A DNA stretch of 64,000 bases from Bacteroidales bacterium. Its GTDB lineage: Bacteria > Bacteroidota > Bacteroidia > Bacteroidales > Prolixibacteraceae. Under the pieces are notes generated by a model that searched no databases, was not told the DNA's origin, and saw only the letters and a program-made list of their open reading frames with translations. The translations under genes were made by a program, and so were the position numbers. The stretch is taken from contig JAAYDJ010000021.1 of the NCBI GenBank assembly GCA_012729335.1, positions 124,001-188,000 on the forward strand, given 5' to 3'. This document shows, piece by piece, positions 58,889 through 60,310 of the stretch; the stretch's first letter is position 1; every line of letters starts with the position of its first letter.

Positions 58889-60007
58889 TCAGAATTCAAA
58901 GAATCTCTTTACCGTATCGGTAATATATTCCAATTGCTGCGCATCCAGTTCGGTGTGCATGGGGAGGGAGAGTACGGTACGGGTGAGGTTTTCGCTCACG
59001 GGGAAATCACCGGGGCCGTAGCCGAGGTAGTGGTAGGCTTCGTGGAGGTGGAGCGGTCTCGGGTAGTAGACCATGGAGGGGACTCCATGTTCCTTTAAAA
59101 ATGACTGGAGGTCGTCACGCCGTGAGGTGCGGAGGGTATACTGATGGAAGGAGTGGGTGGACCAGGGGCGCCGCTCAGGAAGGAGGAGGTCGCCCACCCC
59201 TTGGAGGTGGTGGTCGTACCATGCGGCAGCTTTTTGCCTGGCCGCCACATATTCATCGAGGTGTCTGAGTTTCACATCGAGGATGGCCGCCTGAAGGCTG
59301 TCGAGGCGCGAGTTCATCCCAATCCGCTCGTAATGATAGCGTACCCGTTGACCGTGGTTGGCAATCGAGCGGATGCGTACGGCCATATCTGCGTCGCAGG
59401 TAAAGAGGGCTCCCCCGTCGCCGAAAGCCCCCAGCGTCTTGGAGGGGAAAAAGGAAGTGCATCCGATGATCCCCAGGGTACCCGATTGGCGGCGCTCCCC
59501 GTTGTTGAAAATATAATCAGCCCCCAGCGACTGGGCGGCATCCTCCACCACATGAAGACCATGCTTTCCGGCAAGGGTCATGAACTCCTCCATGTGGGCG
59601 CTCTGCCCGAAAAGATGGACCGGCAGGAGGGCCCGCGTGCGGGGGGTAATGGCCGCCTCGGCCAGGACCGGAGAGAGGTTGAAATCACCGGGATCCACAT
59701 CGGCAAAGACGGGCTTCAGTCCCAGCAGGGCCAGCACCTCCGCAGTGGCCACAAAGGTGAAGGGGGTGGTGATCACCTCGTCACCGGGTTCCAGTCCCAG
59801 GGCCATAAAGGCAATCTGCAGGGCATCGGTGCCGTTGCCACAGGCAATCACCTCCGACTGCTGGTAATCGGCAAGGTGACGTTCAAATTCAGTGACTTTT
59901 CCGCCTTTGATGAATACGGTGGAACGGATCACCTCCTGCATGGAGGCATCCACTTCTTCTTTTATTTTCAGGTACTGGCCGTAAAGGTCGGCCATCTGTA
60001 TATTCAT
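58889..60007 (-). CDS. wbpE: DegT/DnrJ/EryC1/StrS aminotransferase, WbpE/WlbC-like
   Basis: ACGNGTDALQIAFMALGLEPGDEVITTPFTFVATAEVLALLGLKPVFADVDP...EDAAQSLGADY...CTSFFPSKTLGAFGDGGALFT. Confidence 0.9.
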   Translation of the reverse strand: MNIQMADLYGQYLKIKEEVDASMQEVIRSTVFIKGGKVTEFERHLADYQQSEVIACGNGTDALQIAFMALGLEPGDEVITTPFTFVATAEVLALLGLKPVFADVDPGDFNLSPVLAEAAITPRTRALLPVHLFGQSAHMEEFMTLAGKHGLHVVEDAAQSLGADYIFNNGERRQSGTLGIIGCTSFFPSKTLGAFGDGGALFTCDADMAVRIRSIANHGQRVRYHYERIGMNSRLDSLQAAILDVKLRHLDEYVAARQKAAAWYDHHLQGVGDLLLPERRPWSTHSFHQYTLRTSRRDDLQSFLKEHGVPSMVYYPRPLHLHEAYHYLGYGPGDFPVSENLTRTVLSLPMHTELDAQQLEYITDTVKRFFEF

Positions 60008-60139
60008 TATTATAGTTATTTGTTAATGACTTGCTCTTCATTTATATATCGAAGTTAAGCCGATTTGTGTGCTTCACGCCCATGGAAGTCGCATATTGCA
60101 AATATACATGTCCTTATGTGGTCGAAGCACCATGCGACT
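60003..60139 (-). repeat. Dispersed leader element, copy B
   Basis: 137 bp, direct tandem with copy C; ends exactly at wbpE start codon (60005-60007); TATATTTG at 60099..60106 on minus strand. Confidence 0.88.
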
Positions 60140-60310
60140 TTCATTATTATAGTTATTTGTTAATGACTTGCTCTTCAGTTATATATCGTAATGAACCAGT
60201 TTATGTGCTTCAACCCCGTGGAATTGGCTCCGCGGTGCTCCGCCGAACTTCGTTTCGCATGGAGCAAATATACATGTCCTTATGTGATCGAAGCGCCATG
60301 CGACTTTCAT
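60140..60310 (-). repeat. Dispersed leader element, copy C (with ~34-bp GC-rich insertion)
   Basis: Same boundaries TTCATTATTATAGTTATTTG...CGACTTTCAT; TATATTTG at 60265..60272; inserted GGCTCCGCGGTGCTCCGCCGAACTTCG. Confidence 0.88.

Follow-up and report, generated by a model that had tools for sequence, protein, structure and literature searches.

A small mobile element of Bacteroidales that appears to insert at ATGAA start codons and to rebuild them

In this study we describe a short repeat from a member of the Prolixibacteraceae that is best explained, with a probability of roughly 85%, as a small non-autonomous mobile element inserting 3' of ATGAA, chiefly at start codons, and regenerating the start codon that it interrupts. 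The repeat came from a stretch of 64,000 nucleotides of contig JAAYDJ010000021.1, which we call the window and which was analysed as a whole. According to the mechanism that we propose, insertion would take place directly 3' of an ATGAA, chiefly where this ATGAA is the start codon of a gene. The original ATGAA would stay on the left, and the right end of the element would give a new (A/G)TGAA after an A/T-rich stretch. As empty sites in relatives show, the gene then restarts at the edge of the element, usually with the same protein N-terminus.

The window holds three copies, all on the minus strand and placed as an earlier note on this DNA had claimed: two of them form a pair in tandem at 60003-60310, and the third lies at 34788-34929. 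Copy A of the pair has its right boundary ATGAA at 60003..60007, and its right edge is the start codon (60007-60005) of a gene for a DegT/WbpE-like aminotransferase (58889-60007). With one ATGAA counted, copy A is a short form of 137 bp (body 60008..60139). Its hairpin 1 (60086..60140) is built from a 5' arm AAGTCGCATGG at 60140-60130 and a 3' arm ATGCGACTT at 60094-60086, and a box TATATTTG lies in the loop (60106-60099). The ATGAA at 60140..60144 is common to both units, being the right end of copy B and the left boundary of copy A. Copy B is a 167-bp form with a GC-rich internal insertion of 30 nt (body 60145..60305), and its left boundary ATGAA at 60306..60310 represents the original target site. 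Upstream of it, ATGGAAAAACCA (60311..60322) is probably a relic of the ancestral wbpE N-terminus that was severed by the insertion. Copy C is diverged (body 34793..34924, left boundary ATGAA 34925..34929), and its right boundary ATGAA (34788..34792) contains the ATG (34792-34790) of an ORF for a 56-aa protein with two TM segments. Hence the claim that the elements end at the ATG of the next gene is correct for both loci. The variant box AATATTTG, which had been assigned to copy A, is in fact found in copy C of the 34.8-kb locus. The distance of about 90 nt from box to ATG given for every copy fits A and C (about 92 nt) but not B, where it is about 121 nt because of the 30-nt internal insertion. 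Directly downstream of the 56-aa ORF we also noted a unit of ~24 nt, agcacaaccggatatggggaagtc, repeated in tandem at 34440-34620.

The repeat in the window is not due to chance, as seen from E-values and copy number: BLASTN with the 137-bp unit returned 51 hits across the host genome (3.66 Mb in 40 contigs), with E-values down to 1e-66. A profile search of the fetched loci resolved 48 copies of 137 or 167 bp, some of them truncated, and several stand as head-to-tail pairs. Full copies show a median pairwise identity of 82%, the closest pairs reaching 93-96%, so the burst in the host is not brand new. The left boundary is xTGAA, mostly ATGAA, in nearly all full host copies (T in 43, G in 40, A in 42 and A in 44 of 44); the right end is (A/G)TGAA in most of them, usually with an A next, and beyond these boundary pentamers sequence conservation is absent. 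No terminal inverted repeats were found in the host copies, the left end AGTCGCATGG and the right end CTATACTA having no complementarity. The second size class, common to two species, is due to the GC-rich 30-nt insertion AAACGAAGTTCGGCGGAGCACCGCGGAGCCA, whose site is constant in the 3' arm of hairpin 1. Among its carriers are C13_33040, C18_36682, C38_94908 and others, as well as L176, L261 and L441 in the genome G006 of the same genus.

At least one multi-copy repeat, which adjoins three element copies, is missing from the host assembly. This unassembled repeat shows at contig ends (G000:C9:1-125, C23:8307-8423 and C33:1-117), where its three left-end copies begin directly after an element right end (ATGAA followed by AGCCTCACCACC). 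A separate right-end repeat (ending in TCATTAATCTATAATATATCCAA) abuts ATGAA at the start of C19 and the end of C40 (L112, L172). Possibly both kinds of contig-end repeat are parts of one larger relative that has the same target and whose interior lies outside the assembly. As a parent of the element the unassembled repeat was rejected, its 43-aa open end being without a convincing relative in 140 genomes.

When each tandem array is counted once, the host genome has 39 array right edges. At 29 of these an ATG, GTG or TTG within 7 nt opens an ORF that is at least 50 aa long or open at the contig or locus end. Of these ORFs, 26 reach 100 aa or are still open there, so that the bias of genome copies towards start codons, on which the earlier proposal had been staked, was not refuted. 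About a third of the array ends lie off any recognisable start codon. For comparison, 18 of the 54 genes in the window have an in-frame (A/G)TGAA within their first 40 codons, set against 377 such sites; the resulting upper-bound baseline of 4.8% of (A/G)TGAA sites near a gene start, which is drawn from one 64-kb window and takes sites as independent, gives a binomial P of about 2e-25. The target genes in the host are unrelated to each other. They comprise argininosuccinate synthase, the nitrogen regulator P-II, a CobW GTPase, an aldo/keto reductase and ApbE, and further cytochrome c552, GH3, a carboxylesterase, a proC-like protein and the aminotransferase of the window. A preference for surface-associated genes, as had been suggested, is not supported by a list in which argininosuccinate synthase, P-II, CobW and the aldo/keto reductase stand beside secreted enzymes. 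The A/T-rich tail that precedes the new start is well matched to the way translation is initiated in this phylum: in Bacteroidetes, whose mRNAs are without a Shine-Dalgarno sequence, an A-rich upstream context and an A at -3 favour initiation (PMC6847099). Insertions may be tolerated because this tail suits initiation of that kind.

Movement of the element is seen most directly where relatives have empty orthologous sites, which, together with the 48 host copies before unrelated genes, supports the idea of a mobile, dispersed element. In G006 the argG site is empty, with alignable flanks, and reads through ATGAA (..AAATAAG followed by ATGAAGAACAAATTGG); the host has ..AAGAT, ATGAA, the element and then ATGAAAGAGAAATTGG. 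The start of the gene after C13_6727 coincides with that in G006, and in the empty-site comparison host N-termini at insertions match those of their orthologues. The wbpE site is empty in G006 as well (locus L069, CCATGGAACAACCA-ATAAATATCCAG). Since G006 reads CCATGGAACAACCAATAAATATCCAGATGGCC there, the insertion in the window is placed at the fifth codon of the ancestral wbpE frame; the protein in the window now begins at the element's own ATG and is four residues shorter. For a shorter form of the element we compared 14 orthologous genes that carry it at their start in Sunxiuqinia indica (G160) with the congener G026. The element is common to both at five of them, one is unalignably diverged, and eight are clean empty sites in G026 with a conserved left flank (L387, L391, L392, L395, L397_6527, L399, L400 and L401). 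Judged against the congener, these eight short copies of S. indica (~91 bp) are precise insertions at ATGAAA; in one example the empty site reads ..ataatacaa followed by ATGAAAAAACTAGC and the occupied site ..ataatacaa followed by ATGAAACGAGCATG..TTAATCAT and then ATGAAAAAACTAGC. An extra ATG at the left junction of L387 shows that the junction sequence varies. At L400 a second unit has entered at the right edge of an earlier unit. This accounts for tandem arrays: the ATGAA at the right end of an existing copy becomes the target of a new one, as this one clear case shows. In genus g10 many copies have ATGAA at the left and GTGAA at the right boundary. The right-end sequence thus seems to be supplied by the element, which argues against an exact 5-bp duplication, and a 4-bp duplication of TGAA would still be compatible. 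An empty site could in principle be the result of precise excision instead of the state before insertion.

The conserved features of the element are its two ATGAA boundaries and two stems. In the short form, stem 1 (hairpin 1) begins on the left ATGAA and is formed by ATGAAACGAGCATG and CATGCGAGTTCCAT around tandem G.A mismatches; of 67 copies, 49 have C-G and 11 have T-A at its variable pair. In stem 2 of the same form, at least three bases that follow an internal TTCCAT are usually paired with those in front of the right ATG, so that the stem is closed at the new start codon (CATNNN/NNNATG); the mean number of contiguous pairs, out of 5, is 2.66, compared with 0.61 after shuffling and a maximum of 0.91 in 1000 shuffles, all stem pairing counts treating copies as independent of shared ancestry. 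In the subfamily of the window stem 1 is wholly Watson-Crick (AAGTCGCATGG/CCATGCGACTT), with a compensatory A-T pair in two copies, and stem 2 is missing from these 137/167-bp forms. By inspection, the single internal TTCCAT is complementary to ATGAA, and its CCAT could pair with either ATG, the upstream one or that at the right end. We infer that TTCCAT, by pairing with either ATGAA, might be the guide that chooses start codons, comparable to those of single-strand transposons. The three bases of the left flank match the guide at 1.13 versus 0.87 of 3 positions, a weak excess to which hidden tandems possibly contribute.

The element is not restricted to the host. Of 140 genomes of the family, 18 gave matches to a sequence-only model built from 42 host copies; they belong to 6 of 23 genera, and the diverged copies in these genomes mostly end on (A/G)TGAA start codons, for example those of trpB, aroA and ackA (names assigned from the N-termini). 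In nine relatives each genome has 8-31 occurrences of the left-end motif TGAAANGAGCATG, versus 0-2 for a reversed control, and a search with this motif exposed the shorter form of about 91 nt. Most inspected copies in relatives terminate at the ATGAAA of an ORF; many copies of Anaerophaga, Marinilabilia and Thermophagus have their right end off a recognisable start codon. At least 120 stretches matched in a scan of public genomes. Among the matches listed, 80 of them with titles, the group is Bacteroidales wherever a title names such a group; they include Draconibacterium, Sunxiuqinia, Maribellus, Mariniphaga, Marinilabilia, Anaerophaga, Thermophagus, Labilibacter, Proteiniphilum, Paludibacter, Odoribacter and Parabacteroides, several unclassified Bacteroidota bins and one entry titled only 'Bacterium'. 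Viral contigs searched with the pattern of the host type gave no match. A separate subfamily in G005, which belongs to the genus of the window, has copies up to 99% identical before dapF-like, elbB-like and other genes, a case of lineage-specific, independent bursts. Longer forms with the usual ends occur in Anaerophaga (L287, L298, L364, L375) and Thermophagus (L295, L300, L369), where 130-350 nt of extra sequence including palindromic repeats replaces the hairpin loop, with similar cargo at several sites. As cargo-bearing parents they were rejected, their contents being repeats only. The start codon of a TrkA-like gene (MKVVIAGAGEVGTHLARML..) carries differing forms of the element in two genera (L441 in G006 and L420 in G093), which are probably independent hits. 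Near a Sunxiuqinia copy we also noted a cobalamin riboswitch (L242:2237-2438; Rfam RF00174) that has no relation to the element.

How else might such a repeat have spread? The earlier note had seen in it a mobile promoter and 5'-leader cassette, plugging the promoter TATATTTG and a leader onto genes. In the consensus of the host genome TATATTTG lies about 92 nt before the start codon and fits the Bacteroidetes -7 box TAnnTTTG (PMC7366714), and the A-rich right end with its A at -3 favours initiation in this group. However, TAnnTTTG is present in 18 of 42 host copies and in only 15 of 255 copies of relatives, while boundaries and stems stay conserved; a standard promoter is therefore not a conserved property. 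Moreover, element bodies differ in length and may hold unrelated inserts, and a new promoter is unneeded because the native upstream region remains on the left of the element in empty-site comparisons. We consider a promoter cassette quite improbable. A structured cis-regulatory RNA, spreading by putting genes under common control, would hide the start codon in the CAUNNN/NNNAUG stem and free it when CCAU pairs with the upstream AUG. The strong covariation of stem 2, which closes on the start codon, and the competition of stem 1 for the same CCAU agree with this, but the target genes are functionally unrelated and species-specific, occupancy differs between congeners, the subfamily of the window is without stem 2, and a search of 14 loci with Rfam covariance models gave no match to the element (E<=1). 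It is an unlikely explanation of the spread, although such a role could be a secondary effect of the element. A mobile short ORF or leader peptide (MKVAWCFDHIRTCIFAPCDFHGREAHK..), whose translation would begin at the original ATG and run into the new start (TAATG), is hardly credible: a 45-codon frame whose final TAATG includes the next start survives in a few copies, and the insertion of 30 nt leaves it in phase, yet relatives do not retain the frame, and stops at varied positions break it in most copies. This agrees with the earlier note, which had found the internal frame unconserved, and a conserved small ORF was rejected.

A closer kinship may exist with single-strand elements of the REP or IS200/IS605 type, for which an HUH Y1 transposase would cut 3' of ATGAA at both ends, at sites picked by pairing to the internal guide TTCCAT. 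Like IS608 and ISDra2, the element has no terminal inverted repeats, and it may share with them end hairpins and an internal sequence complementary to the cleavage site; IS608 inserts 3' of TTAC, kept in its left flank, and guide pairing selects its cleavage sites (PMC5934647). Here too a fixed short sequence is kept in the left flank, as in the counts for 44 host copies given above and in the empty sites, which keep ATGAA. Both subterminal stems covary in the short type (the right one being missing in the subfamily of the window), and the stem with tandem G.A mismatches recalls the mismatched stems of E. coli REPs (PMC8266576). With REPs and REPINs moved by TnpA_REP (RAYT) the element also shares that it is short, dispersed, non-autonomous, often tandem or paired and grouped in lineage-specific families (PMC8266576, PMC8049555). 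In contrast, REPs carry GTAG and sit between genes, whereas the element targets start codons and supplies a replacement start; no cognate TnpA_REP was found for it. Unlike IS200/IS605 elements, the copies seen carry neither tnpA nor tnpB and the target is a start codon ATGAA, and the guide lies about 50 nt inside the element instead of at the foot of a hairpin as in IS608. Y1_Tnp (PF01797) is present in 11 of 13 genomes tested, the host being among the 13, but it is absent from the host (G000) and from G006, both of which have many copies and carry the subfamily most like that of the window. In the other relatives tested no Y1 gene adjoins the element, and none flanked by element ends was seen; hence Y1_Tnp was rejected as the obvious enzyme. 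Because PF01797 is absent from these two genomes and unlinked elsewhere, we do not claim membership in IS200/IS605 or REP, an assignment that we regard as possible but doubtful; the element may work like IS608 and REPs without belonging to them. A Y1 enzyme could still be encoded in an unassembled repeat or could since have been lost. No autonomous, transposase-bearing copy with the same ends was found among 40 regions around left-end motifs in three genomes. We suppose that an enzyme acting in trans moves the mobile element proposed here, the simplest account if its ends are defined by the boundary pentamers and the hairpins.

Other known systems resemble the element in part. The MITEs of Porphyromonas gingivalis (BrickBuilt, MITE239, MITEPgRS) are likewise small, non-autonomous and present in many copies near genes, and their terminal inverted repeats match IS5-family elements (PMC4596501). 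The element differs from Bacteroidetes MITEs in that it has neither terminal inverted repeats nor a known parent, and the lack of such repeats speaks against a MITE of a DDE insertion sequence. Putative mobile promoters, described as promoter propagation, are repeated sequences upstream of unrelated genes; the element, by contrast, is bounded by the start codon itself, and family-wide its promoter-like box lacks conservation. Integrases targeting tRNA genes restore the end of the gene, and in the same way the element would rebuild the piece of the host gene that it interrupts, although it is non-coding, measures about 90-170 bp and rebuilds start codons, not the 3' end of a tRNA. In the literature on Bacteroidetes mobile promoters and start-codon insertion, covered in part and with few subscription journals, we found no description of such an element. 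Tentatively, it might represent an undescribed class of mobile elements, widespread in Bacteroidales, in which pairing of an internal TTCCAT(NNN) with (NNN)ATGAA picks start codons and insertion gives the gene a new start, the mover being an enzyme that has so far no link to elements of this sort.

Few sites of insertion do more damage than start codons. By homing to such codons and rebuilding them, an element would have found a harmless way of living within the coding machinery, parallel to that of some integrases at tRNA genes. Since many genes at once have their translation start region exchanged for that of a copy, gene expression may shift between close relatives, and the annotation of start sites may be misled. 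If indeed the target is picked by a short internal guide, the element would be a natural, and possibly reprogrammable, system for insertion at start codons.
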